This document shows, in pieces, positions 14,434 to 40,813 of a DNA stretch of 64,000 nt. Position 1 is the stretch's first letter; the number at the start of each line of letters is the position of its first letter. A model generated the notes under the pieces. That model was given only the letters and a program-made list of their open reading frames with translations, ran no database searches and was not told where the DNA came from. The translations under genes and the position numbers were made by a program. The DNA comes from Isoetes taiwanensis. Its lineage: Eukaryota > Streptophyta > Lycopodiopsida > Isoetales > Isoetaceae. The stretch covers positions 3,007,821 through 3,071,820 of the forward strand of contig JAJEKV010000057.1 in NCBI GenBank assembly GCA_021234155.1, in the 5' to 3' direction.

Positions 14434-14899
14434 TTCATGCACAAAATGATGGAGACAAAATTAAGTTCTATAAAGAACACTTTGAATCAAACATGTAATT
14501 GGTAAACAAAGTTAGTTAATAAAACGCTCCAAGCGGATACACACACTCGGGTGTCGGCAAAATCCGCACCACAAAGAATATATGAAGCACTAAATCAACC
14601 AAAAGGCACAAAAATACAATCTCGAGAACAAAATGCAAATCATACGCACCTTTAATTCTTCAACACGAAAAGGTCACGTCTCGGCCATCCCAATGTTACG
14701 AGGATTATGGATAGTTTCAAACCAATCGTAAAGAAGATATTTATTATGGAAGAATATGAGAGGTTTATCCTACTGCATCGAGCATTTCGTGGCACATGTA
14801 AGCATTTGCCAAATATAAGTGGCAAGCCGAAGATCCATATAATAGATATTAAGGTGATAGTCCATGCCTCCAACTCCCTGTCCCATTGTTATTTCTTAT

Positions 14900-15530: not shown

Positions 15531-15949
15531 TAATGCTCAAAGATTGTCACCTATAAAATGCAAGAATTAACACAAAAACTATGACACGATGAAAGAGATA
15601 AAACGAAATTGAGAAAGGGGAGCACAATGCAAACATTAAACTCGTAATTCGATGATGGGTCGCAACCAAGAAAAGCAGAGAAACACAAGGATAACAAAGC
15701 ATGTTGTGATAGACTCTTGTGCCCATGTTTGTTGGAATTGAGCGGTTGTTTGATGAATGGGCCACAACTCGCTTTTTATAAGTTAGGCTAAACCGTAGTT
15801 GGAGCCGCTCAAATCTATTGGGCAAGCACGGAATGCATCAAATCTAAGCTAGGCCTTGCCTACCTCATTTTAGTTATAAGCAAGCTCATATATTCAAGCT
15901 TCATATCTTACCCGATGTCACCAGCCATCCGGAAAACCCACGCTTTGTT

Positions 15950-16790
15950 TGCAAAGAAGCGTAGAAATTGTGATATTGCCGAGAGCTTGCTTCGCCAAAA
16001 GGGAAGGAACGCACCACATCCGGAGACCCAACGAGCACCGGAAAAGCCACGTTTTGTTTGCAAAGAAGCGTAGAAATTGTGATATTGCCGGAGCTTTGCT
16101 TGGCCAAAAGGGAAGGAACGCACCACATCGGGAGACCCAACCGCTTGGAAAAAACAACACACATCTCGGCCATCTATTCAATCGAATGGCCCCTGGCGCT
16201 TGCAAAACGAATTTCGGGGATGTTCAAGGACGAACTTCTAATCAATAACCAAAGCTATCTTTTCTGGGAAGTAAAGCAATTCTAACCCCATTCCGCAATC
16301 AATAACCATAGCTATCTTTTACCGGAAGCAATTCTAACCCCATTCCGACATTCATTCGAACCGGAAAGGAAGATGCGAGAAGCGAGAGCCGAACCGTCCG
16401 ATAAAGAAAACCGCCAAAAGCCAAAATCAAGGGATGAAAATAAGTTGAGAAAATTCAACCAACCGCTCTTGGAAAAAGAACACACATCTCGCCATCTATT
16501 CAATCGAATGGCCCCGCCGCTTGCAAAACGAATTTCGGGATGTTCAAGGACGAACTTCTAATCAATAACCAAAGCTATCTTTTACCGGAAGTAAAGCAAT
16601 TCTAACCCCATTCCGGCAATCAATAACCATAGCTATCTTTTACCAGAAGCAATTCTAACCCCATTCCGACATTCAGGAACTGGAAAGGGAAGATGCGAGA
16701 AGCAGAGAGCCAGAACCGTCGTATAAAGAAAACCGCCAAAAGCCAAAATCAAGGGATGAAAATAAGTTGAGAAAATTCAACGCGCAAGAT
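15950..16790. repeat. nested tandem duplications near the Helitron 5' end
   Basis: A roughly 105-bp block (caaagaagcgtagaaattgt..) at about 15952-16040 is repeated at 16060-16140. A roughly 320-bp block at 16168-16460 (catctattcaatcgaatggc..) recurs at 16493-16785. Each large block contains two roughly 58-bp versions of an aatcaataaccatagctatc motif. The block lies just inside the Helitron 5' terminus, where such elements often carry subterminal repeats. Several overlapping frames on both strands come from this repetition and are not genes. Differences between the copies lie mostly at CAG/CTG positions. Confidence 0.85.
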
Positions 16791-17216
16791 TGCGCGCAGA
16801 CTATCACAAAACGCCTTTATTATTATATATAGATTCCCACAAACATACTTCCATTCAATTTTTTTCAGCAACTAGCAAAAGATCATGACATCAAAACAAT
16901 TTTGAGCTTAAATTTATACTAGTAAACGTGTGGCCCACATTGTTGTAAATTGGATCGCACATAAGTTTGGCTCCCATGTTCGTGTGGTCTCTCAATCCTC
17001 GAACCTGTATATTCAACCTATATATTTTTAAACTCAAGGAAAATAGTTAACTAGCAGCAATGCAAGCCTGAGGAATGGGTTCTGTTGGAATGGTTGTGAG
17101 GTAGGTTATCACATTTTTGGTGTGTACATTTTTGTTTGTTTGAAGTTAGACGGTGAGAATTTAATTTGTATGTATTAGTTTGCATCTGGAAGTAGTGTAC
17201 TATATGTGTCAAAGGG

Positions 17217-17296
<80 letters not shown>

Positions 17297-17297
17297 G
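17217..17297. repeat. (TTG)27 microsatellite, copy A
   Basis: Twenty-seven TTG units; the matching tract in copy B (39366-39476) has 37. The poly-Asn or poly-Cys frames through both are artefacts of the repeat. Confidence 0.95.
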
Positions 17298-18269
17298 CAA
17301 CCAATATAAACAAAATGCAAAATCAAAATTTCTATTATGGACCTCATTGAGAATTAGATATGGCTGTTAATTATTAGCTATTATCAAATAAACTATGCTC
17401 AAGATCAGTAGTGACTTCGAGGATTGAAACAAGTATAATCATTTTAAGCAAACTGAAAAAATACGTTTCTTCTTTTGTTTAATAAGATGACGGAGTGACT
17501 GGCGAAATTCAGACTGTCTTATTAAGGAACCGCCTTTTAATTAAATTTCAGGAAAATTCCTATAGTTCCTAGGGTGGAATCACACTACGTTCTTGGTGTG
17601 ATACGATTCAGGTGAATTCAACGTCCCGAGGCTACCCTTCCCTGCCACGTCACGTTATATCCATCCCTATAATGTGATTTCACCCTTAATTTTACAAAAT
17701 TAAGAGGTTTTTTGAATTGCCATAAGTGATCAAGTTGCTAGCATATCATCAAATCTCTATATTGCTTTGATAGGTTTTTTTGCTTATTTTGTACGCTTGG
17801 TATTTTGTTTTAGATTTCCATCCTAAGGGCTGAGATCTCATCTCACCTGGAATATTCTTGATTGATCCTGGCCGAAGTAACAGAGCAAGACTTAATGATA
17901 AGCCAACTCGTTCAGGGCCCATCTCCATTAGCTAGATTTGAGGTTTTTCCTGTGCCTTGTGGCAAACCCAACCACAAACACCGGCATTCCCATTACCTTC
18001 AAGCGTCGGAGTTTTGCTGACGAATCCAGATGTTCTGGAAGTCCATCTGAAAAGCTCACGACGAACTGAGTTTGCTTTGTCTTCTAGCAGATCCGTCCTT
18101 GCCTTTAACAAAGCCAAGAGGTAGGAAAGACAATCCCCAATGGAACCTCTGTTTCTTCTCCTTCTATTTGTTGAGGTGGCAGAGTGAAAGTGGCAGAAAG
18201 ACTTTGTCCTATTGGGGATCGGCCTTTAATTTAAGCTTCAAAAAGTTTCCTAGGCATTGAGAAATTGAG

Positions 18270-18282
18270 GAAATCTAGCTGG
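18270..18282 (+). repeat. 13-bp direct repeat, left side of the 19.6 kb insert
   Basis: gaaatctagctgg here is identical to 37891-37903. The left copy follows the end of segmental copy A; the right copy overlaps the first bases of copy B. It is therefore read as the target-site duplication of the insert between them. Confidence 0.75.
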
Positions 18283-19847
18283 AGGAATAGCTTAACTCCT
18301 AGAGAGATGCTAGGGTTAGGTCGCGACTAGGGCGGCGGCAGGCGGCCGCCCATCTCGTGCAGCAGACTGATTTCTCCTTGCTTGCTGGAAGAGTGGCCGA
18401 TGCTAGGCCACTGGCTTCTCCATTCTGCTTGTTTTTTTGCAGATGGAGAATAGAGTGCTAGGCATTTCACATCTTGCTACAATCCTTCTTTCTTTGGAGC
18501 TCGCCTTAGCTTCTGAAGGAGATCATAAGTGCAGGATTTACGGTCAGAATAGATGCTCGCCTCTTCTTCTGTGATCTAACCAGAATGGATAGCCGTGAAG
18601 AAACCCCAGCCAAGTGGTATGCCTTTCCCTTGTTTGATGTGTATCTTAGTCAGTTTTCTCAGGTTCAGGAGGCTATGCTGCATCTGCTATAGCGTTGTAG
18701 AGGGCTGCACTCACTGTAACCGAATATGCTGCACTCACTGCAGCTCAGGGATTCAAATGAAAGCTGGTTTCGTTTTCATTTCAAAGAAGGTGTGGACACA
18801 ATCAGTTGGCTAGGTTTTTTTCGTACTGAACATGGAGGACAGTTTCTTTCTTTCAAGGTAACGTGTTACGTTTGAGATTTAGTTGTGGCAAGCATGAGTT
18901 TGTTTGGTGGAGTCCTATTACCCCTGTTCACTGCTGCACTAGCTTTGGTTTTGGGTATGTCAAAGTTCTGTCTACTACAGGTTGGGTACAGCAAGAAGAG
19001 GGCACTGGATTTATTTAACCGGCATCCATGGCGCTATTATTGCAGTGGCTTACCTGATAGCTGAATAGAGGTGAGACATATTTAGTTTTCTTGTGCTTGA
19101 GAAGTGCCTCTGTATGAAATCTTTCGGAGCTACTTAAGGGTGTGCGAAGGAGATTCCTCAAGCATGGTAGCTTTAGCTTGAGTCAAGCTACTGTTTGTTT
19201 GGAGAGCTTTGGTTTTTGGTGGCAGCGCTATCTTTTTCATGCTTTAGCCATGATCGTTCTGATTTGTAGCACTTACTCCATGGAGAGAGGTTCTGTTTTT
19301 TATGTTTGCCCTCTTCCATCCCATGCTTCAGGAATTTGCACCACAAAAGCAAGTTACAACAGCTATTGACTCCATGAGGCATAGGGACGGGAGGACCACA
19401 TGTTCTCATAGTTGCCTACTAGAAATGGTGGGTAGAGACAGGGAAGGTGAAGCCCAAGTGAAGGAGGCCTTAGAATCATCTATGTTCCAAGGAAGATGGT
19501 GAGTATAGGTACTCCAAGTACGAGACATCGGAAATGAGTTCTTCTCCCAGTAGTACTTGAGTATGGATAGAATATGGGCCGAGTTAAGGCGAGGGATGAT
19601 AACTCTACTCTTTTGTTCGTGTCTGTTGCAATTCCGGATGTGGAACTTTAAGAGGTAGCATCTTCAGGAAATTTGGGGTCAGTATTTGAGATGGATTGTT
19701 ATAATGGTGTTTGTGCCTTTTCTCTACACTTTTTGGGAAAACGTGCTGAAATGTTTTAGGCTATCTGGCTTTGGAGCCATAAATAAATGTATTTACATAC
19801 TATTATCAATAAAAATAAAATATCTTGCTCTAAAAAAAAAAAAAAAA
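18283..19847 (+). mobile_element. retroposed sequence ending in poly-A, 5' part of the large insert
   Basis: Begins with a GC-rich leader-like stretch (near 18300-18360) right after the 13-bp repeat and ends with an AT-rich 3' region (aataaatgtat, then atcaataaaaataaaat) and A16 at 19832-19847. The poly-A signals and tail mark it as copied from a plus-strand RNA. Frames are short and none matches a family I know; it could be a LINE-derived or non-coding transcript. The tandem array begins immediately after the A16. Confidence 0.6.
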
Positions 19848-22575
19848 CCCTTAAACTGCAAAACAGTCTTTTATCTAGTTAAAACCCATTTGGGTAATTA
19901 TCTAGATACAATAAGCAATCCTAGAAACAGTAGGTGCAAAACTGGATCTAGGCAAAGACTTGGTGTATACTTGAGAACAAAAGCAATGATCATAGTATAA
20001 AAGCTAAAAGCTTTCTACATTCATCAAGACACAATGATAGATTTCTTTGATCATTTATTTAAAATCAAGTTTGCTAAGAAACTGACATAATTTTGAGCAA
20101 GTAAGACAACAAATATATTGCAGAACTTAAATGTTACAGAACATTTTATGATCTTCAAGAGTTCGTCTTCGTATAATTTATCCGCATCAATGCCCAATCC
20201 ACTCGTTACATATTTGGAAAACATAACAGAGAGTAAAGGATCCTGTTACCTGCACCAACATTACAAAAAACAAGCATTAGAAATGGTTGCCTTGTACATG
20301 GTAGCAGGTGTCATGGGATCTTTAGGGTCATCCCCCTTCACACTAATTTACAACACATCCATTAGCCATTAGTAATGAGATGTTATCTAGTGGATTATTA
20401 AAAGCAAATGCTAAATCCTCATACGTGACCACTTTTCCTCTTATGTTAGTGCCAGACTACTCTATTTCTGTGTTTATATATTAGGATCTAAGACATATGC
20501 CACATGGTAATGATTAGTCCATATTTTCAGTAATATGACCATAGTATATTTTAACCTGCTGATTTACCGGTGTCCTGCAGTTTGCCATGATCTGTCACCT
20601 CTTATTATATCCAGCACACTACCTTATTTGCATACTACATGCCTGTAGTCACCAAGTCCAGCCAGAAAATGTCTATTCTCAATATATCCACTTATGTAAT
20701 AGCAACCTTCAACTACGCGTTCACCAAATGTACATCCTATTCATCAATCAAAGTAAGAGGTGGTTATTGATTGTATGTAGACTGCAACTATTATGTTGGC
20801 CAGAAACATGCAGGCATCTACAACAGAGGTCTATAAATTTCCAGATCTGTCAAGCTATTGCCGCTCTAGGATACAACAAATTTGATATCGTAATGTGAAA
20901 TATTTGCTACAAAAGTTGCCTTCACAGCCCAGAATGGAAAACATTATTAAACATAGTGTGCCAGATTCTAGATTCTAAAAGAGCTACTGCTATGTAGTTA
21001 AGGCCAGATCTATTTACATAGCTCAAAAACTTCCTAGAGTTCACAGAATATGCTAAGAATAGCCAGCGATAGTTCAAATCAACAATAGATCTGAAGCGGA
21101 CATTGCAAGCAACATATAGTATTATTATAAATGGCATGATCACTTACTGTCAAAATAATAACGTATCTGACCAGCTAAAGAATAAAGACTCTAAATCTTA
21201 ACTCCAAACCTGATTAGAACGAATGTTGTCCAATGAATGATGCTGGATTCATCCACAATTGCCGAAATGCATTCTTCTCGTTGGCAATATAGGCACGTCT
21301 TTAGATTGACCATGAACATGAACTGTAGACGATTCACCCATATCATATTTCCATCCTCTTGTCAGCCGTAATGGAAGAAAAGGAGGCAGTCATATGGCAC
21401 TGCTAAATCTCTCTCTCTCCTGTTGTCTGGCTAGCCCTTAATGCTATGTTACGATCTCCCTTCCTCTGCTCAGAGCCATAGATATACACCATGCATTTCG
21501 TTTCTACCATAGTCCGGAACCCTAAATGTATAGGTAGGAAATACCAGGACAGTCCCAAATAGGTGCAGTCAGGCTCCATTTCCTTGGAGGACTAGGTTCT
21601 TATGCTCTCATTAGTCCATGGAGTACATGCCATTGTTGAGCTGATCAAGCGGACATGCAAACTTGAAAATTATGCCCTAAAAAACCTTCTATAAGAGTTA
21701 GACGAGTCACATCTTTAACAACATACCAAATGCACTCTTAACTTTACTTAATAAAAAAACCCTGCCACCAACCGTAGGTCAGGGGGCCAAAGTGAGAACA
21801 ATATCATAGCAACAAGGAGAGTAGGACCTTGTTGCACCAAGGCCCTACCCTACCTATATTGCCCATACTTCTACTCATGCGTATCATAAACATCTTATAA
21901 GATAAATGGAAATACCTCATTTTGCAAAATGTTGAGTACATTTTGTTTGCTATCCTTCAGATTTTGAACATTTTTGCACAATGTTCAATGGGCACTTCAA
22001 TGTCCAAACATCAGCTACAAAGCTTGACCGCGAATATACTGATGGTAGAACTTGCGCTTGACCATAAGGCCGAGCCAATTTCTTATATCCCAATGGAATC
22101 AATAAATTTACCATAGTTTTTAGCAAATGCTTAATGTCATGTCAAACATGACTTTCTGATCTCACCTATTGCTTTTAGATATCATTGTAATCCTGTTCAT
22201 AAAAAATTAGAAAGTTCAAAAATGTTATCTAGACATGCAAAAAATCAGCAAAGCACCCTATAGCCCATTGCTTTTTCCCAGGCAAGATAATTCAAGATAA
22301 TTCATTGTACCTTGCTTGTACACATCATTGTCATGATGTTCCTAGAAAATCAGAAAGTACAAATGTGTAATTCAGACATTTGGCCTGTTTCTTTTGCATT
22401 TGCCATAAGATAACATAAACTCGTTATTTCGATGCTTTTGAACTTCATACTCTTCTTGTTCCTGGTCCTGTATATCACATAGTACCGATGAAATATTTAG
22501 AAATGTCAATTATAAATCAGCACCTATAATCACCAGAGTCTTTGTTATTGGTATAACCAATAAATTGAGATTAAG
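19840..22575. repeat. array unit 1 (A-B-C)
   Basis: Block B spans 20253-21212 (960 bp) and has at least two internal deletions compared with later copies: one near 20341 removing the gcctgtgatcc segment, one near 20452. There is no D block. The unit abuts the A16 of the preceding retroposed sequence. Confidence 0.9.
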
Positions 22576-24760
22576 AAAAAAAACCCTTAAACTGCAAAAC
22601 AGTCTTTTATCTAGTTAAAACCGGGTAACTATCTAGATACAATAAGCAATCCTAGAAACAGTAGGTGCAAAACTGGATCTAGGCAAAGACTTGGTGTATA
22701 CTTGAGAACAAAAGCAATAATCATAGTATAAAAGCTAAAAGCTTTCTACATTCATCAAGACACAATGATAGATTTCTTTGATCATTTATTTAAAATCAAG
22801 TTTGCTAAGAAATTGACATAATTTTGAGCAAGTAAGACAACAAATATATTGCAGAACTTAAATGTTACAGAACATTTTATGATCTTCAAGAGTTCGTCTT
22901 CGTATAATTTATCCGCATCAATGCCCCATCCACTCGTTACATATTTGGAAAACATAACAGAGAGTAAAGGATCCTGTTACCTGATTAGAACGAATGTTGT
23001 CCAATGAATGATGCTGGATTCATCCACAATTGCCAAAATGCATTCTTCTCGTTGGCAATATAGGCACGTCTTTAGATTGACCATGAACATGAACTGTAGA
23101 CGATTCACCCATATCATATTTCCATCCTCTTGTCAGCCGTAATGGAAGAAAAGGAGGCAGTCATATGGCACTGCTAAATCTCTCTCTCTCCTGTTGTCTG
23201 GCTAGCCCTTAATGCTATGTTACGATCTCCCTTCCTCTGCTCAGAGCCATAGATATACACCATGCATTTCGTTTCTACCATAGTCCGGAACCCTAAATGT
23301 ATAGGTAGGAAATACCAGGACAGTCCCAAATAGGTGCAGTCAGGCTCCATTTCCTTGGAGGACTAGGTTCTTATGCTCTCATTAGTCCATGGAGTACATG
23401 CCATTGTTGAGCTGATCAAGCGGACATGCAAACTTGAAAATTATGCCCTAAAAAACCTTCTATAAGAGTTAGACGAGTCACATCTTTAACAACATACCAA
23501 ATGCACTCTTAACTTTACTTAATAAAAAAACCCTGCCACCAACCGTAGGTCAAGGGGCCAAAGTGAGAACAATATCATAGCAACAAGGAGAGTAGGACCT
23601 TGTTGCACCAAGGCCCTACCCTACCTATATTGCCCATACTTCTACTCATGCCTATCATAAACATCTTATAAGATGAATGGAAATACCTCATTTTGCAAAA
23701 TGTTGAGTACATTTTGTTTGCTATCCTTCAGATTTTGAACATTTTTGCACAATGTTCAATGGGCACTTCAATGTCCAAACATCAGCTACAAAGCTTGACC
23801 GCGAATATACTGATGGTAGAACTTGCGCTTGACCATAAGGCCGAGCCAATTTCTTATATCCCAATGGAATCAATAAATTTACCATAGTTTTTAGCAAATG
23901 CTTAATGTCATGTCAAACATGACTTTCTGATCTCATCTATTGCTTTTAGATATCATTGTAATCCTGTTCATAAAAAATTAGAAAGTTCAAAAATGTTATC
24001 TAGACATGCAAAAAATCAGCAAAGCACCCTATAGCCCATTGCTTTTTCCCAGGCAAGATAATTCATTGTACCTTGCTTGTACACATCATTGTCATGATGT
24101 TCCTAGAAAATCAGAAAGTACAAATGTGTAATTCAGACATTTGGCCTGTTTCTTTTGCATTTGCCATAAGATAACATAAACTCGTTATTTCGATGCTTTT
24201 GAACTTCATACTCTTCTTGTTCCTGGTCCTGTATATCACATAGTACCGATGAAATATTTAGAAATGTCAATTATAAATCAGCACCTATAATCACCAGAGT
24301 CTTTGTTATTGGTATAACCAATAAATTGAGATTAAGAAAAAAACCTTTTAAACTGCAAAACAGTCTCTTATCTAGGTAAAACCCATTTGGGTAGTTATCT
24401 AGATACAATAAGCAACCCTAGAAACAGTAGGTGCAAAACTGGATCTAGGCAAAGACCTTGGTGTATTTTTAAGATAAGATATACCATGCTCCTTAATCCA
24501 TTGCTTTAGCACTTCATTATCATCCTGTCCTTAGAAATCAGAAGGTACAAATGTGTAATTTAGAAATTTGGGCTGTAAATATTGCATTTGTCATAATCCA
24601 GTGATGCAAGATCCTTAATCCAATGCTTGTAAACTTCATTCCCTTCTTGTTCCTATATATCAGAAAGTCCAAGATAATATTTAGAAATGTCAATTATTAG
24701 ATCAGCACCTATAATCACCAGAGTCTTTGTTATTGGTATAACCAATAAATTGAGATTAAG
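22576..24760. repeat. array unit 2 (A-C-D, no B)
   Basis: Block A runs straight into C at 22983/22984, with a single acctg at the joint where B-containing units have one acctg on each side of B. D spans 24337-24760. Confidence 0.92.
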
Positions 24761-27700
24761 AAAAAAAACCCTTAAACTGCAAAACAATCTTTTATCTAGT
24801 TAAAACCCATTTGGGTAATTATCTAGATACAATAAGCAATCCTAGAAACAGTAGGTGCAAAACTGGATCTAGGCAAAGACTTGGTGTATACTTGAGAACA
24901 AAAGCAATAATCATAGTATAAAAGCTAAAAGCTTTCTACATTCATCAAGACACAATGATAGATTTATTTGATCATTTATTTAAAATCAAGTTTGCTAAGA
25001 AACTGACATAATTTTGAGCAAGTAAGACAACAAATATATTGCAGAACTTAAATGTTACAGAACATTTTATGATCTTCAAGAGTTCGTCTTCGTATAATTT
25101 ATCCGCATCAATGCCCAATCCACTCGTTACATATTTGGAAAACATAACAGAGAGTAAAGGATCCTGTTACCTGCACCAACATTACAAAAAACAAGCATTA
25201 GAAATGGTTGCCTTGTACATGGTAGCAGGTGTCATGGGATCCTTTAGGGTCATCCCCCTTCACACTGCCTGTGATCCTACTAAATAGCAGAAATAATTTA
25301 CAACACATCCATTAGCCATTAGTAATGAGATGTTATCTAGTGGATTATTAAAAGCAAATGCTAAATCCTCATACGTGACCACTTTTCCTCTTATGTTAGT
25401 GCATACCAGCTGCAACTGTATGGAAATTGGGAATCTGCTACTAAATCATCTGCGCAACACATATTATAAGCATAATGTGGTAATGAATCCATGTCCATAA
25501 GCAGTTGGACGGATGTTTAAGCAAATGTACTGCCAGACTACTCTATTTCTGTGTTTATATATTAGGATCTAAGACATATGCCACATGGTAATGATTAGTC
25601 CATATTTTCAAAGAATATGACCATAGTATATTTTAACCTGATTTACCTTGTGTCCCTGCAGTTTGCCATGATCTGTCACCTCTTATTATATCCAGCACAC
25701 TACCTTATTTGCATACTACATGCCTGTAGTCACCAAGTCCAGCCAGAAAATGTCTATTCTCAATATATCCACTTATGTAATAGCAACCTTCAACTACTCG
25801 TTCACCAAATGTACATCCTATTCATCAATCAAAGTACTAAGCAAGAGGTGGTTATTGATTGTATGTAGACTGCAACTATTATGTTGGCCAGAAACATGCA
25901 GGCATCTACAACAGAGGTCTATAAATTTCCAGATCTGTCAAGCTATTGCCGCTCTAGGATACAACAGCTGCATACAAAATGTGAAATATTTGCTACAAAA
26001 GTTGCCTTCACAGCCCAGAATGGAAAACATTATTAAACATAGTGTGCCAGATTCTAGATTCTAAAAGAGCTACTGCTATGTAGTTAAGGCCAGATCTATT
26101 TACATAGCTCAAAAACTTCCTAGAGTTCACAGAATATGCTAAGAATAGCCAGCGATAGTTCAAATCAACAATAGATCTGAAGCGGACATTGCAAGCAGCA
26201 TATAGTATTATTATAAATGGCATGATCACTTACTGTCAAAATAATAACGTATCTGACCAGCTAAAGAATAAAGACTCTAAATCTTAACTCCAAACCTGAT
26301 TAGAACGAATGTTGTCCAATGAATGATGCTGGATTCATCCACAATTGCCGAAATGCATTCTTCTCGTTGGCAATATAGGCACGTCTTTAGATTGACCATG
26401 AACATGAACTATAGACGATTCACCCATATCATATTTCCATCCTCTTGTCGGTAAATGGAAGAAAAGGAGGCAGTCATATGGCACTGCTAAATCTCTCTCT
26501 CTCCTGTTGTCTGGCTAGCCCTTAATGCTATGTTACGATCTCCCTTCCTCTGCTCAGAGCCATAGATATACACCATGCATTTCGTTTCTACCATAGTCCG
26601 GAACCCTAAATGTATAGGTAGGAAATACCAGGACAGTCCCAAATAGGTGCAGTCAGGCTCCATTTCCTTGGAGGACTAGGTTCTTATGCTCTCATTAGTC
26701 CATGGAGTACATGCCATTGTTGAGCTGATCAAGCGGACATGCAAATTTGAAAATTATGCCCTAAAAAACCTTCTATAAGAGTTAGACGAGTCACATCTTT
26801 AACAACATACCAAATGCACTCTTAACTTTACTTAATAAAAAAACCCTGCCACCAACCGTAGGTCAGGGGGCCAAAGTGAGAACAATATCATAGCAACAAG
26901 GAGAGTAGGACCTTGTTGCACCAAGACCCTACCCTACCTATATTGCCCATACTTCTACTCATGCGTATCATAAACATCTTATAAGATAAATGGAAATACC
27001 TCATTTTGCAAAATGTTGAGTACATTTTGTTTGCTATCCTTCAGATTTTGAACATTTTTGCACAATGTTCAATGGGCACTTCAATGTCCAAACATCAGCT
27101 ACAAAGCTTGACCGCGAATATACTGATGGTAGAACTTGCGCTTGACCATAAGGCCGAGCCAATTTCTTATATCCCAATGGAATCAATAAATTTACCATAG
27201 TTTTTAGCAAATGCTTAATGTCATGTCAAACATGACTTTTTGAACTCATCTATTGCTTTTAGATATCATTGTAATCCTGTTCATAAAAAATTAGAAAGTT
27301 CAAAAATGTTATCTAGACATGCAAAAAATCAGCAAAGCACCCTATAGCCCATTGCTTTTTCCCAGGCAAGATAATTCATTGTACCTTGCTTGTACACATC
27401 ATTGTCATGATGTTCCTAGAAAATCAGAAAGTACAAATGTGTAATTCAGACATTTGGCCTGTTTCTTTTGCATTTGCCATAAGATAACATAAACTCGTTA
27501 TTTCGATGCTTTTGAACTTCATACTCTTCTTGTTCACGGTCCCCATATATCACATAGTACCGATGAAATATTTAGAAATGTCAATTATAAATCAGCACCT
27601 ATAATCACCAGAGTCTTTGTTATTGGTATAACCAATAAATTGAGATTAAGAAAAAAACCTTTTAAACTGCAAAACAGTCTCTTATCTAGGTAAAACCCAT

Positions 27701-28074
27701 TTGGGTAGTTATCTAGATACAATAAGCAACCCTAGAAACAGTAGGTGCAAAACTGGATCTAGGCAAAGACCTTGGTGTATTTTTAAGATAAGATATACCA
27801 TGCTCCTTAATCCATTGCTTTAGCACTTCATTATCATCCTGTCCTTAGAAATCAGAAGGTACAAATGTGTAATTTAGAAATTTGGGCTGTAAATATTGCA
27901 TTTGTCATAATCCAGTGATGCAAGATCCTTAATCCAATGCTTGTAAACTTCATTCCCTTCTTGTTCCTATATATCAGAAAGTCCAAGATAATATTTAGAA
28001 ATGTCAATTATTAGATCAGCACCTATAATCACCAGAGTCTTTGTTATTGGTATAACCAATAAATTGAGATTAAG
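24761..28074. repeat. array unit 3 (A-B-C-D)
   Basis: Complete unit of 3.3 kb; B spans 25174-26298 (1125 bp) and D 27651-28074. Useful as the reference copy because it shows few of the CAG/CTG-centred differences. Confidence 0.92.
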
Positions 28075-31000
28075 AAAAAAAACCCTTAAACTGCAAAACA
28101 GTCTTTTATCTAGTTAAAACCCATTTGGGTAATTATCTAGATACAATAAGCAATCCTAGAAACAGTAGGTGCAAAACTGGATCTAGGCAAAGACTTGGTG
28201 TATACTTGAGAACAAAAGCAATAATCATAGTATAAAAGCTAAAAGCTTTCTACATTCATCAAGACACAATGATAGATTTCTTTGATCATTTATTTAAAAT
28301 CAAGTTTGCTAAGAAACTGACATAATTTTGAGCAAGTAAGACAACAAATATATTGCAGAACTTAAATGTTACAGAACATTTTATGATCTTCAAGAGTTCG
28401 TCTTCGTATAATTTATCCGCATCAATGCCCAATCCACTCATTACATATTTGGAAAACATAACAGAGAGTAAAGGATCCTGTTACCTGCACCAACATTACA
28501 AAAAACAAGCATTAGAAATGGTTGCCTTGTACATGGTAGCAGGTGTCATGGGATCCTTTAGGGTCATCCCCCTTCACACTGCCTGTGATCCTACTAAATA
28601 GCAGAAATAATTTACAACACATCCATTAGCCATTAGTAACGAGATGTTATCTAGTGGATTATTAAAAGCAAATGCTAAATCCTCATACGTGACCACTTTT
28701 CCTCTTATGTTAGTGCATACCAGCTGCAACTGTATGGAAATTGGGAATCTGCTACTAAATCATCTGCGCAACACATATTATAAGCATAATGTGGTAATGA
28801 ATCCATGTCCATAAGCAGTTGGACGGATGTTTAAGCAAATGTACTGCCAGACTACTCTATTTCTGTGTTTATATATTAGGATCTAAGACATATGCCACAT
28901 GGTAATGATTAGTCCATATTTTCAGCAATATGACCATAGTATATTTTAACCTGCTGATTTACCGGTGTCCTGCAGTTTGCCATGATCTGTCACCTCTTAT
29001 TATATCCAGCACACTACCTTATTTGCATACTACATGCCCCAGAGTCACCAAGTCCAAAATTAAAATGTCTATTCTCAATATATCCACTTATGTAATAGCA
29101 ACCTTCAACTACTCGTTCACCAAATGTACATCCTATTCATCAATCAAAGTACTAAGCAAGAGGTGGTTATTGATTGTATGTAGACTGCAACTATTATGTT
29201 GGCCGAAACATGTAGGCATCTACAACAGAGGTCTATAAATTTCCAGATCTGTCAAGCTATTGCCGCTCTAGGATACAACAGCTGCATACAGAATGTAAAA
29301 TATTTGCTACAAAAGTTGCCTTCACAGCCCAGAATGGAAAACATTATTAAACATAGTGTGCCAGATTCTAGATTCTAAAAGAGCTACTGCTATGTAGTTA
29401 AGGCCAGATCTATTTACATAGCTCAAAAACTTCCTAGAGTTCACGTATATGCTAAGAATAGCCAAATGATAGTTCAAATCAACAATAGATCCGGCGGACA
29501 TTGCAAGCGAAGATATAGTATTATTATAAATGGCATGATCACTTCTTGTCAAAATAATAACGTGTCGACCAGCTAAAGAATAAAGACTCTAAATCTTAAC
29601 TCCAAACCTGATTAGAACGAATGTTGTCCAATGAATGATGCTGGATTCATCCACAATTGCCGAAATGCATTCTTCTCGTTGGCAATATAGGCACGTCTTT
29701 AGATTGACCATGAACATGAACTATAGACGATTCACCCATATCATATTTCCATCCTCTTGTCAGCCATAATGGAAGAAAAGGAGGCAGTCATATGGCACTG
29801 CTAAATCTCTCTCTCTCCTGTTGTCTGGCTAGCCCTTAATGCTATGTTACGATCTCCCTTCCTCTGCTCAGAGCCATAGATATACACCATGCATTTCGTT
29901 TCTACCATAGTCCGGAACCCTAAATGTATAGGTAGGAAATACCAGGACAGTCCCAAATAGGTGCAGTCAGGCTCCATTTCCTTGGAGGACTAGGTTCTTA
30001 TGCTCTCATTAGTCCATGGAGTACATGCCATTGTTGAGCTGATCAAGCGGACATGCAAACTTGAAAATTATGCCCTAAAAAACCTTCTATAAGAGTTAGA
30101 CGAGTCACATCTTTAACAACATACCAAATGCACTCTTAACTTTACTTAATAAAAAAACCCTGCCACCAACCGTAGGTCAGGGGGCCAAAGTGAGAACAAT
30201 ATCATAGCAACAAGGAGAGTAGGACCTTGTTGCACCAAGACCCTACCCTACCTATATTGCCCATACTTCTACTCATGCGTATCATAAACATCTTATAAGA
30301 TAAATGGAAATACCTCATTTTGCAAAATGTTGAGTACATTTTGTTTGCTATCCTTCAGATTTTGAACATTTTTGCACAATGTTCAATGGGCACTTCAATG
30401 TCCAAACATCAGCTACAAAGCTTGGCCGCGAATATACTGATGGTAGAACTTGCGCTTGACCATAAGGCCGAGCCAATTTCTTATATCCCAATGGAATCAA
30501 TAAATTTACCATAGTTTTTAGCAAATGCTTAATGTCATGTCAAACATGACTTTCTGAACTCATCTATTGCTTTTAGATATCATTGTAATCCTGTTCATAA
30601 AAATTAGAAAGTTCAAAAATGTTATCTAGACATGCAAAAAAATCAGCAAAAGCACCCTATAGCCCATTGCTTTTTCCCGTGCAAGATAATTCATTGTACC
30701 TTGCTTGTACACATCATTGTCATGATGTTCCTAGAAAATCGAAAAAGTACAAATGTGTAATTCGGACATTTGGCCTGTTTCTTTGCATTTGCCATAAGAT
30801 AACATAAACTTCGTTATTTCGATGCTTTTGAACTTCATACTCTTCTTGTTCCTGGTCCTGTATATCACATAGTACCGATGAAATATTTAGAAATGTCAAT
30901 TATAAATCAGCACCTATAATCACCAGAGTCTTTGTTATTGGTATAACCAATAAATTGAGATTAAGAAAAAACCTTTTAAAGCGCAAAAACAGTCTCTTAT

Positions 31001-31389
31001 CTAGGTAAAACCCATTTGGGTAGTTATCTAGATACAATAAGCAACCCTAGAAACAGTAGGTGCAAAACTGGATCTAGGCAAAGACCTTGGTGTATTTTTA
31101 AGATAAGATATACCATGCTCCTTAATCCATTGCTTTAACACTTCATTATCATCCTGTCCTTAGAAATCAGAAGGTACAAATGTGTAATTTAGAAATTTGG
31201 GCTGTAAATATTGCATTTGTCATAATCCAGTGATGCAAGATCCTTAATCCAATGCTTGTAAACTTCATTCCCTTCTTGTTCCTATATATCAGAAAGTCCA
31301 AGATAATATTTAGAAATGTCAATTATTAGATCAGCACCTATAATCACCAGAGTCTTTGTTATTGGTATAACCAATAAATTGAGATTAAG
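28075..31389. repeat. array unit 4 (A-B-C-D)
   Basis: Complete unit, 3.3 kb; B spans 28488-29610 and D 30966-31389. Differences from unit 3 cluster at 29030-29060, 29440-29580 and after 30600, nearly all at CAG/CTG. Confidence 0.92.
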
Positions 31390-33587
31390 AAAAAAAACCC
31401 TTAAACTGCAAAACAGTCTTTTATCTCGTTAAAACCCATTTGGGTAATTATCTAGATACAATAAGCAATCCTAGAAACAGTAGGTGCAAAACTGGATCTA
31501 GGCAAAGACTTGGTGTATACTTGAGAACAAAAGCAATAATCATAGTATAAAAGCTAAAAGCTTTCTACATTCATCAAGACACAATGATAGATTTCTTTGA
31601 TCATTTATTTAAAATCAAGTTTGCTAAGAAACTGACATAATTTTGAGCAAGTAAGACAACAAATATATTGCGTAAACTTAAATGTTCTGAGAACATTTTA
31701 TGATCTTCAAGAGTTAGATCTTCATTATAATTTATCCGCATCAATGCCCAATCCACTCATTACATATTTGGAAAACATAGCAGAGTAAAGGATCCCATTG
31801 CACGATTAGAACGAATGTTGTCCAATGAATGATCTTTGGATTCATCCACAATTGCCAAAATGCATTCTTCTCGTTGGCAATATAGGCACGCGTCTTTAGA
31901 TTGACCATGAACATGAACGTAGGCGATTCACCCATATCATATTTCCATCCTCTTGTCGGTAGTAATGGAAGAAAAGGAGGCGATCATATGGCAATCGCTA
32001 AATCTCTCTCTCTCTCCTTTATGCGGCTAGCCCTTAATGCTATGTTACGATCTCCCTTCCTCTGCTCAGAGCCATAGATATACACCATGCATTTCGTTTC
32101 TACCATAGTCCGGAACCCTAAATGTATAGGTAGGAAATACCAGGACAGTCCCAAATAGGTGCAGTCAGGCTCCATTTCCTTGGAGGACTAGGTTCTTATG
32201 CTCTCATTAGTCCATGGAGTACATGCCATTGTTGAGCTGATCAAGCGGACATGCAAACTTGAAAATTATGCCCTAAAAAACCTTCTATAAGAGTTAGACG
32301 AGTCACATCTTTAACAACATACCAAATGCACTCTTAACTTTACTTAATAAAAAAACCCTGCCACCAACCGTAGGTCAAGGGGCCAAAGTGAGAACAATAT
32401 CATAGCAACAAGGAGAGTAGGACCTTGTTGCACCAAGGCCCTACCCTACCTATATTGCCCATACTTCTACTCATGCGTATCATAAACATCTTATAAGATG
32501 AATGGAAATACCTCATTTTGCAAAATGTTGAGTACATTTTGTTTGCTATCCTTGATTTTGAACATTTTTGCACAATGTTCAATGGGCACTTCAATGTCCA
32601 AACATCAGCTACAAAGCTTGACCCAGCGAATATCTTGATGGTAGAACTTGGCGCTTGACCATAAGGCCGAGCCAATTTCTTATATCCCAATGGAATCAAT
32701 AAATTTACCATAGTTTTTAGCAAATGCTTAATGTCATGTCAAACATGACTTTCTGATCTCATCTATTGCTTTTAGATATCATTGTAATCCTGTTCATAAA
32801 AGATTAGAAAGTTCAAAAATGTTATCTAGACATGCAAAAAATCAGCAAAAGCACCCTATAGCCCATTGCTTTTTCCCGTGCAAGATAATTCATTGTACCT
32901 TGCTTGTACACATCATTGTCATGATGTTCCTAGAAAATCGAAAGTACAAATGTGTAATTCAGGACATTTGGCTGTTTCTTTTGCATTTGCCATAAGATAA
33001 CATAAACTTCGTTATTTCGATGCTTTTGAACTTCATACTCTTCTTGTTCCCGGTCACCGTATATCACATAGTACCGATGAAATATTTAGAAATGTCAATT
33101 ATAAATCAGCACCTATAATCACCAGAGTCTTTGTTATTGGTATAACCAATAAATTGAGATTAAGAAAAAACCTTTTAAACTGGAAAACAGTCTCTTATCT
33201 AGGTAAAACCCATTTGGGTAGTTATCTAGATACAATAAGCAACCCTAGAAACAGTAGGTGCAAAACTGGATCTAGGCAAAGACCTTGGTGTATTTTTAAG
33301 ATAAGATATACCATGCTCCTTAATCCATTGCTTTAGCACTTCATTATCATCCTGTCCTTAGAAATCAGAAGGTACAAATGTGTAATTTAGAAATTTGGGC
33401 TGTAAATATTGCATTTGTCATAATCCAGTGATGCAAGATCCTTAATCCAATGCTTGTAAACTTCATTCCCTTCTTGTTCCTATATATCAGAAAGTCCAAG
33501 ATAATATTTAGAAATGTCAATTATTAGATCAGCACCTATAATCACCAGAGTCTTTGTTATTGGTATAACCAATAAATTGAGATTAAG
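31390..33587. repeat. array unit 5 (A-C-D, no B)
   Basis: B is missing; the A/C joint is at 31803/31804 and is locally garbled (cccattgcacg for cctgttacctg). D spans 33165-33587. This unit is dense in CAG/CTG-centred differences. Confidence 0.9.
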
Positions 33588-36500
33588 AAAAAAAACATAA
33601 AAGCGCAAAGCAGGTCTTTTATCTAGTTAAAACCCATTTGGGTAATTATCTAGATACAATAAGCAATCCTAGAAACGATGGGTGCAAAACGGATCTAGGC
33701 AAAGACTTGGTGTATACTTGAGAACAAAAGCAATAATCATAGTATAAAAGCTAAAAGCTTTCTACATTCATCAAGACACAATGATAGATTTATTTGATCA
33801 TTTATTTAAAATCAAGTTTGCTAAAGAAACCGACATAATTTTGAGCAAGTAAGACAACAAATATATTGCGAGAACTTAAATGTTCTGAGAACATTTTATG
33901 ATCTTCAAGAGTTAGATCTTCGTATAATTTATCCGCATCAATGCCCAATCCACTTTCGTTACATATTTGGAAAACATAATAGAGAGTAAAGGATCCCATT
34001 ACTGCACCAACATTACAAAAACAAGCATTAGAAATGGTTGCCTTGTACATGGTAGCGGTGTCATGGGATCCTTTAGGGTCATCCCCTTCACACGCTTTGT
34101 GATCCTACTAAATAGCAGAAATAATTTACAACACATCCATTAGCCATTAGTAATGAGATGTTATCTAGTGGATTATTAAAAGCAAATGCTAAATCCTCAT
34201 ACGTGACCACTTTTCCTCTTATGTTAGTGCATACCGGTTTTACAAGCAACCATATGGAAATTGGGAATCTGCTACTAAATCATCTGCGCAACACATATTA
34301 TAAGCATAATGTGGTAATGAATCCATGTCCATAAGCAGTTGGACGGATGTTTAAGCAAATGTACTGCCAGACTACTCTATTTCTGTGTTTATATATTAGG
34401 ATCTAAGACATATGCCACATGGTAATGATTAGTCCATATTTTCAGCAATATGACCATAGTATATTTTAACCTGCTGATTTACCGGTGTCCTGCAGTTTGC
34501 CATGATCTGTCACCTCTTATTATATCCAGCACACTACCTTATTTGCATACTACATGCCTGTAGTCACCAAGTCCAGCCAGAAAATGTCTATTCTCAATAT
34601 ATCCACTTATGTAATAGCAACCTTCAACTACTCGTTCACCAAATGTACATCCTATTCATCAATCAAAGTACTAAGCAAGAGGTGGTTATTGATTGTATGT
34701 AGACTGCAACTATTATGTTGGCCAGAAACATGCAGGCATCTACAACAGAGGTCTATAAATTTCCAGATCTGTCAAGCTATTGCCGCTCTAGGATACAACA
34801 GCTGCATACAGAATGTAAAATATTTGCTACAAAAGTTGCCTTCACAGCCCAGAATGGAAAACATTATTAAACATAGTGTGCCAGATTCTAGATTCTAAAA
34901 GAGCTACTGCTATGTAGTTAAGGCCAGATCTATTTACATAGCTCAAAAACTTCCTAGAGTTCACAGAATATGCTAAGAATAGCCAGCGATAGTTCAAATC
35001 AACAATAGATCTGAAGCGGACATTGCAAGCAGCATATAGTATTATTATAAATGGCATGATCACTTACTGTCAAAATAATAACGTATCTGACCAGCTAAAG
35101 AATAAAGACTCTAAATCTTAACTCCAAACCTGATTAGAACGAATGTTGTCCAATGAATGATGCTGGATTCATCCACAATTGCCGAAATGCATTCTTCTCG
35201 TTGGCAATATAGGCACGCGTCTTTAGATTGACCATGAACATGAACTATAGGCGATTCACCCATATCATATTTCCATCCTCTTGTCGGTAGTAATGGAAGA
35301 AAAAGGAGGCAGTCATATGGCACTGCTAAATCTCTCTCTCTCCTGTTGTCTGGCTAGCCCTTAATGCTATGTTACGATCTCCCTTCCTCTGCTCAGAGCC
35401 ATAGATATACACCATGCATTTCGTTTCTATCATAGTCCTAACCCTAAATGTATAGGTAGGAAATACCAGGACAGTCCCAAATAGGTGCAGTCAGGCTCCA
35501 TTTCCTTGGAGGACTAGGTTCTTATGCTCTCATTAGTCCATGGAGTACATGCCATTGTTGAGCTGATCAAGCGGACATGCAAACTTGAAAATTATGCCCT
35601 AAAAACCTTCTATAAGAGTTAGGCGAGTCACATCTTTAACAACATACCAAATGCACTCTTAACTTTACTTAATAAAAAACCACGCCACCAACCGTAGGTC
35701 GGGGGGGCCAAAGTGAGAACAATATCATAGCAACAAGGAGAGTAGGACCTTGTTGCACCAAGACCCTACCCTACCTATATTGCCCATACTTCTACTCATG
35801 CGTTATCATAAACATCTTATAAGATAAATGGAAATACCTCATTTTGCAAAATGTTGAGTACATTTTGTTTGCTATCCTTCCATTTTGAACATTTTTGCAC
35901 AATGTTCAATGGGCACTTCAATGTCCAAACATCAGCTACAAAGCTTGACCGCGAATATACTGATGGTAGAACTTGCGCTTGACCATAAGGCCGAGCCAAT
36001 TTCTTATATCCCAATGGAATCAATAAATTTACCATAGTTTTTAGCAAATGCTTAATGTCATGTCAAACATGACTTTCTGATCTCATCTATTGCTTTTAGA
36101 TATCATTGTAATCCTATTCATAAAAAATTAGAAAGTTCAAAAATGTTATCTAGACATGCAAAAAATCAGCAAAGCACCATATAGCCCATTGCTTTTTCCC
36201 AGGCAAGATAATTCATTGTACCTTGCTTATACACATCATTGTCATGATGTTCCTAGAAAATCAGAAAGTACAAATGTGTAATTCAGACATTTGGCCTGTT
36301 TCTTTTGCATTTGCCATAAGATAACATAAACTCGTTATTTCGATGCTTTTGAACTTCATACTCTTCTTGTTCCTGGTCCTGTATATCACATAGTACCGAT
36401 GAAATATTTAGAAATGTCAATTATAAATCAGCACCTATAATCACCAGAGTCTTTGTTATTGGTATAACCAATAAATTGAGATTAAGAAAAAAAACCTTTT

Positions 36501-36912
36501 AAACTGCAAAACAGTCTCTTATCTAGGTAAAACCCATTTGGGTAGTTATCTAGATACAATAAAACTTAACCCTAGAAACAAGATGGTGCAAAACTGGATC
36601 TAGACAAAGACCTTGGTGTATTTTTAAGATAAGATATACCATGCTCCTTAATCCATTGCTTTAGCACTTCATTATCATCCTGTCCTTAGAAATCAGAAGG
36701 TACAAATGTGTAATTTAGAAATTTGGGCTGTAAATATTGCATTTGTCATAATCCAGTGATGCAAGATCCTTAATCCAATGCTTGTAAACTTCATTCCCTT
36801 CTTGTTCCTATATATCAGAAAGTCCAAGATAATATTTAGAAATGTCAATTATTAGATCAGCACCTATAATCACCAGAGTCTTTGTTATTGGTATAACCAA
36901 ATTGAGATTAAG
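33588..36912. repeat. array unit 6 (A-B-C-D)
   Basis: Complete unit; B spans 34005-35132 and D 36487-36912. The A block and the first 250 bp of B differ strongly from unit 3 at CAG/CTG sites, whereas 34300-35200 is nearly identical to it. Confidence 0.9.
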
Positions 36913-37865
36913 AAAAAAAACCCTTAAACTGCAAAACAGTCTTTTATCTAGTTAAAACCCATTTGGGTAATTATCTAGATACAATAAGCAATCCTAGAAA
37001 TAGTAGGTGCAAAACTGGATCTAGGCAAAGACTTGGTGTATACTTGAGAACAAAAGCAATAATCATAGTATAAAAGCTAAAAGCTTTCTACATTCATCAA
37101 GACACAATGATAGATTTCTTTGATCATTTATTTAAAATCAAGTTTGCTAAGAAACTGACATAATTTTGAGCAAGTAAGACAACAAATATATTGCAGAACT
37201 TAAATGTTACAGGACATTTTATGATCTTCAAGAGTTCGTCTTCGTATAATTTATCCGCATCAATGCCCAATCCACTCGTTACATATTTGGAAAACATAAC
37301 AGAGAGTAAAGGATCCTGTTACCTGATTAGAACGAATGTTGTCCAATGAATGATGCTGGATTCATCCACAATTGCCGAAATGCATTCTTCTCGTTGGCAA
37401 TATAGGCACGTCTTTAGATTGACCATGAACATGAACTGTGGACGATTCACCCATATCATATTTCCATCCTCTTGTCAGCCGTAATGGAAGAAAAGGAGGC
37501 AGTCATATGGCACTGCTAAATCTCTCTCTCTCCTGTTGTCTGGCTAGCCCTTAATGCTATGTTACGATCTCCCTTCCTCTGCTCAGAGCCATAGATATAC
37601 ACCATGCATTTTGTTTCTACCATAGTCCGGAACCCTAAATGTATAGGTAGGAAATACCAGGACAGTCCCAAATAGGTGCAGTCAGGCTCCATTTCCTTGG
37701 AGGACTAGGTTCTTATGCTCTCATTAGTCCATGGAGTACATGCCATTGTTGAGCTGATCAAGCGGACATGCAAACTTGAAAATTATGCCCTAAAAAACCT
37801 TCTATAAGAGTTAGACGAGTCACATCTTTAACAACATACCAAATGCACTCTTAACTTTACTTAAT
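36913..37865. repeat. array unit 7, truncated (A-partial C)
   Basis: No B (joint at 37325/37326). C ends after cttaactttacttaat, where other units have seven A followed by ccctgcc; here the A-run becomes 23 long and the array stops. Confidence 0.9.
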
Positions 37866-37888
37866 AAAAAAAAAAAAAAAAAAAAAAA
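37866..37888 (+). other. A23 tail at the right end of the 19.6 kb insert
   Basis: Twenty-three A residues directly before ga and the 13-bp repeat at 37891-37903. Read as the poly-A tail of a retroposed plus-strand RNA, although C blocks contain a short A-run here that could have expanded. Confidence 0.6.
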
Positions 37889-37890
37889 GA

Positions 37891-37903
37891 GAAATCTAGC
37901 TGG
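37891..37903 (+). repeat. 13-bp direct repeat, right side of the 19.6 kb insert
   Basis: gaaatctagctgg, identical to 18270-18282; it also forms the first bases of segmental copy B (compare 9508). Confidence 0.75.
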
Positions 37904-38634
37904 TTACCATGACAAACAGTTTTATAGCATACAGCCTAAGATAGCATAAATAGTTTCATAAAAGCATAACCTTTTAGACATTGTAAACTTCTCATCTTTT
38001 GTAAATACGTGATGCATGTACACCAGCCAATCCCTTGCTTACGCCAATCCTTGATCGTTGTACGCAAATCTCAAGCCAACTCAAGCTTCCAAGACATATA
38101 GAAATATAGAAATAAAGCTTATGCTTTTCAACATCATATCGTGTAGAAACTGCAATTAATAAAATTTAATTAAATAATCCAGTTACAATTTTAGTTCTAC
38201 CATATAGTATATGGAAACTCCATTAGTTGGAAGTTTTTACTAGGTTATAAAAATACACTAACCTAAAGGAATAAATATAATCTAACAAAATACATTAACC
38301 TAAGGCGACGACCTAAGAAAAAAACACAAAATTTAATTAGACGTTTCTGGTGCTCGAGAATTTATTTTTCGGCAGTCTTAAATTCTGTTTCTGGCAGCCT
38401 AATTTAGAGGATTTTTTCTTTTCATGCTTTTTAGACATCTATAGTTATAAAACTATCAAATCCTTTGCCATTCGAGTCAGTTTTGCTATTGGGGTCCTCC
38501 ATTAGAAGCTATGATCACATCCAACCAGATTCTTCAGCATAAAAGGTTGAATGGTAGATTTTCTCATCTCAAGCCTCTTGATTTTCTTTCCTTTACTCAT
38601 ATTCATCTGTTTCTTTTCTTTTATCCATTATGTT

Positions 38635-38908
38635 TGGGGCATGGTCTAGTGGCAGAACCTTAAACTACCAGACGCGAGGTCACGGCTTCAAACCTAGCCA
38701 ATATCGGTCTACTAGTAATAGGGACCTTAAAAATCGATTGTCTTAAGGTCGCGGATTCAAGTACGACCAACTTCTAGCATATTGCCCCTAGATAGTGGAT
38801 TGGCTTTCAAGTGATGTATATCGCGCCTAGATAGTGGATTGGCTTCCAAGTGATGTAGAATGCACTCATGATATGATGATGAATAGATTGATATCCTTCA
38901 ATAAAAAC
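38635..38908 (+). mobile_element. SINE, copy B version
   Basis: Same element as at 10160-10505, with identical A and B boxes. It lacks 64 bp between two caact repeats and its tail has shrunk to five A. Confidence 0.7.
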
Positions 38909-39365
38909 TTCTAACATTCTTAATGATTTAAAAAAAATATATAATGTATGTTGTTACTTTAGTTTTTTATATTTAGATTCCCACAAACATACTTCCATTC
39001 AATTTTTTTCAGCAACTAGCAAAAGATCATGACATCAAAACAATTTTGAGCTTAAATTTATACTAGTAAACGTGTGGCCCACATTGCTGTAAATTGGACT
39101 GCACATAAGTTTGGCTCCCATGTTCGTGTGGTCTCTCAATCCTCGAACCTGTATATTCAACCTATATATTTTTAAACTCAAGGAAAATAGTTAACTAGCA
39201 GCAATGCAAGCCTGAGGAATGGGTTGTGTTGGAATGGTTGTGTAGTTAGGTAGGTTATCACATTTTTGGCGTGTACATTTTTGTTTGTTTGAAGTTAGAT
39301 GGTGAGAATTTAATTCGCATGTATTAGTTTGCATCTGGAAGTAGTGTACTATATGTGTCAAAGGG

Positions 39366-39476
<111 letters not shown>

Positions 39477-40489
39477 CAACCAATATAAACAAAAGTTTAT
39501 AATTGCAAAATCAAAATTTCTATTATGGACCTCATTGAGAATTAGATATGGTTGTTAATTATTAGCTATTATCAAATAAACTATGCTCAAGATCAGTAGT
39601 GACTTCGAGGATTGAAACAAGTATAATCATTTTAAGCAAACTGAAAAAATACGTTTTTTCTTTTGTTTAATGAGATGACGGAGTGATTGGCAAAATTCAG
39701 ACTGTCTTATTAAGGAACCGCCTTTTAATTAAATTTCAGGAAAATTCCTATAGTTACTTAGGGTGGAATCACACTACGTTCTTGGTGTGATACGATTCAG
39801 GTGAATTCAACGTCCCGAGGCTGTCCTTCCCTGCCACGTCACGTTATATCCATCCCTATAATGTGATTTCACCCTTAGTTTTACAAAATTAAGAGGTTTT
39901 TTGAATTGCCATATGTAATCAAGTTGCTAGCATATCATCAAATCTCTATATTGCTTTGATAGGTTTTTTTGCTTATTTTGTACGCTTGGTATTTTGTTTC
40001 AGGTTTCCATCCTAAGGGCTGAGATCTCATCTCACCTGGAATATTCTTGATTGATCCTGGCCGAAGTAACAGAGCAAGACTTAATGATAAGCCAACTCGT
40101 TCAGGGCTCATCTCCATTAGCTAGATTTGAGGTTTTTCCTGTGCCTTGTGGCAAACCCGACCACAAACACTGGCATTCCCATTACCTTCAAGCGTCGGAG
40201 TTCATCGGACGAATCCAGATGTTCTGGAAGTCCATCTGTGAAGCTCACGACAAACTGAGTTTGTCTTGTAGCAGAGGAAGCTTTGTCTTCTAGCAGATCC
40301 GTCCTTGTCCTTTAACAAAGCCAGGAGGTAGGAAAGACAATCCCCAATGGAACCTCTGTTTCTTCTCCTTCTATTTGTTGAGGTGGCAGAGTGAAAGTGG
40401 CAGAAAGACTTTGTCCTATTGGGGATCGGCCTTTAATTTAAGCTTCAAAAAGTTTCCTAGGCATTAATTTAAGGAATTGAGAAGTTAAT

Positions 40490-40813
40490 TGAATTGTCAT
40501 AAGTAACCAAGTTGCTAGGCATATCATCAAATCTCTATATTGCATTGATAAGTTTTTTTTTGCGTATTTTGTGCCCTTGGTAATCTGTTTTAGGTTTCCA
40601 TCGTGAGGATTGAGATCTCATTCTTACCTGGGATATTCTTGATTGGTCCTGACCGAAGTAAGAAAGCAAGATTTAGTGATAAGCCAACTTGTTTAATTTA
40701 ATTTTCAAGAAATTTCCTATAATTACTTAGTTTTAAGGAATTGAGAAGTATTTGAATTGCTATAAGTAACCAAGTTGGAGGGCATATGATCGAATCTCTA
40801 TATTGCATTGATA
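40490..40813. repeat. diverged tandem copies of the end of segmental copy B
   Basis: 40490-40695 is a diverged copy of 39898-40102 (for example gttgctagcatatcatcaaa, then gatcctggccgaagtaa). A third partial copy lies at 40748-40813. These are older than the copy A/copy B duplication. No gene seen in them. Confidence 0.8.

Follow-up and report, generated by a model that had tools for sequence, protein, structure and literature searches.

A probable nested pair of poly(A)-ended repeats at the joint of a tandem duplication in Isoetes taiwanensis

In Isoetes taiwanensis, a 2.6-kb tandem duplication has at its joint an interval of 19.6 kb bounded by 13-bp direct repeats. This interval consists of two repeats of separate families, named here E1 and E2. 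The locus as a whole is probably best explained by a tandem duplication, the insertion of E1 at its joint, the insertion of E2 in the poly(A) tail of E1, the growth of an E2 array, and a later duplication. The mechanism is ordinary retroposition, nested and with local array growth, and the locus is largely explained by it. The window, i.e., the whole stretch of DNA that was analysed, is 64 kb long, and coordinates are counted from its first base. Two related loci, a tandem copy just upstream (P) and a locus on C963, were used for comparison. The parts of the locus are as follows (TSD, target-site duplication):

9508..10636, + strand: copy A, first part (9508-10494 is 97% identical to 37892-38907)
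10637..16814, no strand given: 6.2-kb insertion within copy A, present in P and absent from copy B and C963
16815..18269, + strand: copy A, second part, reaching the joint (16815-18258 is 93% identical to 38957-40465)
18270..18282, + strand: candidate left TSD of E1; 12 of its 13 bases equal the start of copy B
18283..18304, + strand: 22-nt stretch from the TSD to the conserved E1 start, placed by comparison with other TSD-bearing full-length copies
18305..19831, + strand: E1 body, a non-coding poly(A) retroposon with AATAAA-type signals directly before its tail
19832..19847, + strand: A16, left-hand portion of the E1 tail; the E2 head follows directly
19848..37872, + strand: E2 array with seven heads and seven tails; last unit shortened
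37866..37888, + strand: A23 at the E2 3' end; inner units have A6-A7 at the corresponding place
37891..37903, + strand: candidate right TSD of E1, where copy B begins
37892..40490, + strand: copy B; right limit approximate

The 13-mer GAAATCTAGCTGG is found at 18270-18282 and 37891-37903, both on the + strand, and nowhere else on either strand of the 64-kb window. Runs of at least ten A's are limited to 10490-10505, 19832-19847 (A16) and 37866-37888 (A23). Two bases, GA, lie between A23 and the right 13-mer. Deleting 18283-37903 makes copy A adjoin copy B. The preliminary description had reported the repeated 13-mer, the A-run before its right copy and the adjoining of the two segmental copies once the interval is removed, and all three were borne out. 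In 400,000 random draws from the window, pairs of 60-bp and 25-bp stretches had an exact 13-mer in common 626 times, a rate inflated by the window's own repeats (draws less than 200 bases apart were skipped).

Copy B (37892-40465) is 97% identical to 9508-10494 and 93% identical to 16815-18258. Copy A is split over 9508-18270 and measures about 2.6 kb once the 6.2-kb insertion is set aside. This insertion (10637-16814) was not mentioned in the preliminary description, whose 2.6-kb copy A it interrupts. Past their common end, the sequence after copy A is AAATCTAGCTGG, equal to the opening 12 bases of copy B, and copy B runs into its own right flank. Since the joint reads AAATCTAGCTGG and not the continuation of copy B, the start of copy B was most likely in place before E1. 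This joint sequence, with its left 12-mer equal to the copy B start, supports a tandem duplication that would be older than E1, and with it the earlier proposal that an insertion at the joint followed the duplication. The search for a locus with copy A joined straight to copy B, also proposed earlier, found none genome-wide among the 40 of 876 candidates that were scored (query 37891-40465). As for the 6.2-kb insertion, no clear target duplication was seen around it, and tandem repeats of 109 bp and 322 bp lie inside it near its right end. The C963 locus is a clean empty site for this insertion; P and copy A both carry it.

E1 as a whole spans about 18283-19847 (~1.56 kb). In the genome searched (1.66 Gb, 1,110 contigs), the query 18283-19831 gave at least 42 matches with 40 of 506 candidates scored; the window, P and C963 are included, and some matches are pieces of one copy. 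Copies L002, L003 and L008 (on C1033, C1076 and C985) start at 18302-18305, end in poly(A) and have unrelated flanks. The ends were read at 12 further places, comprising four full-length copies, the C1044 copy in its 3' part and seven truncated copies. An A-rich tail is present in each of the 15 other copies that were followed to the common 3' end; that of the C1044 copy is interrupted. Matches L005 and L006 have different ends. The truncated copies lack their 5' part, start at query positions 207, 544, 948, 1092 (two copies with shared flanks), 1216 and 1222, and end at 1546-1549. The internal A16 had earlier been suggested as a possible mark of an original 3' end, and this is supported. Relative to other copies, the window E1 has a 44-bp deletion at 19461/19462. 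Of the sequence lost from it, about 50 bp is kept in P and about 43 bp in C963. At the site of this deletion, the E1 copy L070 (C1044:5091250-5094570) has about 2.7 kb extra; two of its three ORFs of at least 90 aa were scanned, with no Pfam match.

A short direct repeat after the tail, with its partner just upstream of the element, is found in 7 of the 8 other full-length E1 copies; in the copy on C1076, no TSD was detected. Between TSD and element start, these seven copies have about 0-25 nt. The TSD score was that of the best local alignment of the 45 bases preceding E1 with the first 20 bases after its tail, in test windows that were fixed once the flanks were known and with some edges set by hand. 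The nine full-length copies, including the window, scored 13, 9, 4, 8, 8, 12, 10, 7 and 10. A score of at least 7 was reached by eight of these nine versus 1 of 72 mispaired controls (control mean 4.5; Mann-Whitney p 1e-5). Most truncated copies have no clear TSD, as their scores were 7, 4, 4, 5, 4, 6 and 9, i.e., at least 7 in two of seven, and the last copy of the set has a purine-rich flank. For all 16 copies together, the counts were 10/16 versus 12/240 in controls (p 4e-5). No other copy of the set has a match as long as the 13-mer of the window, which sits in the same position as in other E1 copies and compares with a best score of 9 in the 72 mispaired flanks. This 13-mer fits as the TSD of E1, and coincidence is unlikely given its place and length. 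For E1, the first proposal of target-primed retroposition at the joint, with a TSD of 13 bp and poly(A), is supported; it does not hold for the whole 19.6 kb, which are two nested elements.

The poly(A) tail, variable TSDs and 5' truncation found in the family mark E1 as a non-autonomous poly(A) retroposon. Other classes were considered and rejected. An autonomous LINE does not apply, as no own reverse transcriptase was found: the longest stop-to-stop frame in and around L002 has 109 aa, and two E1-related frames scanned against Pfam gave no match. The coding-potential scan of E1 and E2, 10 frames in all, led nowhere. An LTR retrotransposon or TRIM was dismissed for want of terminal repeats, the self-comparison of E1 giving only weak 15-17-bp matches, none of them terminal. 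A SINE was likewise dismissed, with no tRNA-, 5S- or 7SL-like head found: no Rfam match reached the gathering score and ARAGORN gave no tRNA-like head, though degenerate heads may escape both programs.

The E2 units are 2.2-3.3 kb long, the last one being shortened, with joints near 22570, 24755, 28069, 31384, 33582 and 36907. In head and tail segments, their identity to a reference unit is 96-99%. The joints carry ATTAAG(A)n, and in five units the same motif also stands before a further, incomplete head. In the inner units, the A6-A7 is followed by a spacer of about 1.2 kb. Tandem E2 is also found elsewhere, with the joint ATTAAG(A)8 at C1035 and C1042 (L045, L046). Moreover, nine dispersed heads have a non-joint edge (L034, L039, L040, L041, L043, L044, L048, L049 and L050; L048 and L049 share flanks). 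In eight of them, at least nine A's lie directly before the head; L040 has no such run. This left A-run may reflect either a preferred target or E2's own A8 in expanded form. E1 was found upstream of none of nine dispersed E2 heads, and the 3' flanks of the 15 other E1 copies never open with E2 (judged by eye, and by BLAST for L002, L003 and L008). The search for 18283-19831 and for array units elsewhere, which had been proposed at the outset, shows both families with unrelated flanks and fits the nested model. A single 19.6-kb retrocopy, as it had been considered, is rejected, since the families of E1 and E2 are distinct and have different flanks elsewhere. The accompanying view that the insert probably arrived small and then grew as an array is supported, E1 measuring about 1.56 kb and E2 making up the 18-kb array.

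The 3' end of E2 can be read at two loci. L034 (C1047) has a single unit, and both of its ends are present. It has no similarity to the E2 unit between about 1430 and 2035, i.e., up to its last 52 bases; the similarity of these stops at unit position 2086, and A21 and unrelated DNA follow. The window array ends (37872) at the same unit position and with the same last non-A bases, followed by A23. Among the loci read, the window and L034 are the two with this common end, poly(A) and an unrelated flank. A right-edge A-run is present in both E2 ends (2/2). No TSD other than A's could be shown for E2, and a TSD made of A's only is indistinguishable from a tail. On this evidence, E2 appears to be a repeat that ends in poly(A), and its A23 possibly merged with the remainder of the E1 tail. 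In a tree of E2 heads, those of the window, C963 and P lie apart from nine dispersed heads with a fork support of 99/96 (L045 and L049 were too short and left out; of 19 inner forks, only 5 have good support). This grouping would fit array growth at this locus. The array form has a spacer, and the single copy is without it, which argues that E2 came with more than one unit.

The related loci bear on the order of events. P is a direct 27.5-kb tandem copy (window-relative -34017..-6529 versus about -6521..21238; C1064:2973803-3001291 and 3001299-3029058) of about 86% identity. The second copy of the pair ends inside the array of the window, and P is cut within its array at the junction with the next copy. 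The C963 locus, on the reverse strand, comprises copy A, E1 and about 18 kb of E2 array, with a similarity of only about 83% in the last part of the array; the 6.2-kb insertion is absent there. This array breaks off at a joint between units, and 3.6 kb of dissimilar sequence and then N come next. The 3.6 kb have one 33-base match only to the window and the 38 kb upstream of it. Neither P nor C963 has copy B beside the array. Behind the C963 array, no poly(A), 13-mer or copy B was found in the 3.6 kb of other sequence up to the N. The 2.5 kb downstream of copy B (45000-47500) gave nine matches, none of them on C963, where N stretches cannot match. The C963 locus without copy B behind its array would call for a further rearrangement there.

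Other features of the window were also recorded. An open frame of 653 aa (6163-8124, + strand), inside the duplicated block, has a weak, below-cut-off DUF688 match. Transposon remnants are present as well, namely a reverse transcriptase (2573-3658, - strand; RVT_1), a copia-type gag with zinc knuckle (52382-53290, - strand) and DUF659 (60076-60546, + strand).

The divergence between the copies was studied in four-way alignments of A, B, C963 and P (918 and 1,383 columns). Unique changes number 1 in A, 47 in B, 53 in C963 and 324 in P. Shared sites group A+B versus C963+P 21 times, B+C963 five times and A+C963 once. Many of these differences lie within two bases of CG or CHG motifs: 18 of the 21 AB sites, 37/53 of the C963-only, 108/324 of the P-only and 7/47 of the B-only changes, versus 495 of 2301 columns (21.5%) as background. 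In the 6,700 bases next to copy A, counted relative to A, P mismatches make up 18.5% at CG/CHG motifs versus 6.9% at 12 or more bases away, and C963 mismatches 10.3% versus 1.6%. The slope is weaker for A versus B (6.1% versus 3.7% in one test of 1,272 bases). The changes in P occur in both directions (C>T 90, T>C 72, A>G 46, G>A 42), and those of C963 are G>A 36, A>G 31, C>T 23 and T>C 12. The CG/CHG-linked differences may well be base-calling errors on methylated DNA. Such errors would account well for C963 and for the AB-shared sites, and for P only partly. P and A have the 6.2-kb insertion and C963 is without it, so that P should be the sister of A; hence 324 private changes in P against one in A are not ordinary divergence. 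Given the noise at CG/CHG and the excess of private changes in P, identities to P and C963 are a poor clock.

These counts bear on the reading in which the 13-mer is a coincidence or a recombination microhomology, A-E1-E2 is the native order, and copy B was pasted behind the array later. Indeed, A-E1-E2 are contiguous in both the upstream 27.5-kb copy and C963 with no copy B behind. At face value, the identities (93-97% for A-B, 86% for A-P) and the 21 sites that set A and B apart from C963 and P would make copy B younger than E1. This was the reading initially favoured, and it came to be judged improbable on the CG/CHG evidence: 18 of those 21 sites are near such motifs and are read as shared error, and the enrichment of the C963-only changes (37/53) is not found in the B-only ones (7/47; background 21.5%). 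Moreover, P is the expected sister of A by the 6.2-kb insertion, and its 324 private changes against one in A then cannot stem from ordinary divergence. The 13-mer also sits where other E1 copies have their TSDs. A late arrival of copy B is considered improbable.

It is also conceivable that E1 and E2 came jointly as one chimeric retrocopy, by template switch or from a composite transcript, with a single TSD. A single non-A TSD does bracket both parts, and each part ends in poly(A). Such a chimera would, however, measure at least 6-7 kb, and elsewhere E1 is followed by flanking DNA (15 copies) and E2 has no E1 before it (nine heads) at the loci read. As no other locus read joins E1 and E2, a joint arrival is the less likely course, and we give it a low probability.

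The nested reading, which is preferred, gives the following history. A 2.6-kb segment would first have been duplicated in tandem to give copies A and B. The non-autonomous poly(A) RNA of E1 would then have been reverse-transcribed into the joint in a LINE-type, target-primed manner, presumably with LINE machinery, with 13 bp of target duplicated. E2, the second poly(A)-ended repeat, would have inserted in the E1 tail by retroposition; as it lies between this tail and the right TSD of E1, it came after E1. The right TSD would since then sit 18 kb away, beyond E2. The spacer is also found between E2 units at other loci, and E2 therefore probably arrived as a multi-unit piece of about 5 kb or more, followed by local growth to about seven units, possibly by unequal exchange. 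The 6.2-kb element in copy A and the tandem duplication of the 27.5-kb block with the left parts of the locus would come last, because C963 has E1 and E2 without the insertion and P and A have all three. A more specific possibility is that a read-through RNA of several E2 units, polyadenylated at the last one, was retroposed whole into the E1 tail. This is considered unlikely. If true, a new satellite-like array could be seeded in one step at poly(A) tracts, and the retroposition of several units at once is the more interesting remaining point of the locus.

The locus is of use in several respects. Its order of events can be read: duplication, retroposition at the joint, tail insertion, array growth and later duplication. 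An 18-kb array inside the TSD of a 1.5-kb retroposon illustrates that a single TSD can bracket far more than was first retroposed. Furthermore, CG/CHG sites distort the identity between segmental copies of this assembly, which makes such identity a poor clock. This locus is not named in the titles and abstract openings of the papers found.

E1 resembles the poly(A) retroposons mobilised by LINEs, such as processed retrocopies and L1-dependent elements, in its poly(A) tail with an upstream AATAAA-type signal, its variable, short TSDs and its 5'-truncated copies, and in having neither terminal repeats nor any coding capacity that was found. At about 1.5 kb, it is longer than SINEs, and no parent gene or LINE is assigned here. 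It differs in the up to 25 nt that often lie between the TSD and the element start. Retroposons that insert in the poly(A) tail of an older retroposon are known from the Alu/L1 field. E2 in E1 is alike in that the tail of the first element is split by the second, with A-runs on both sides; it is unlike in that the second element is here an 18-kb tandem array of several units. Tandem satellite-like arrays derived from transposable elements and amplified locally are also of a known kind. E2 shares with them the head-to-tail arrangement, units that are 96-99% alike, shared deletions and higher-order shifts. In contrast to such arrays, it starts at the head of the element and ends at an apparent poly(A) site, and not at arbitrary points.
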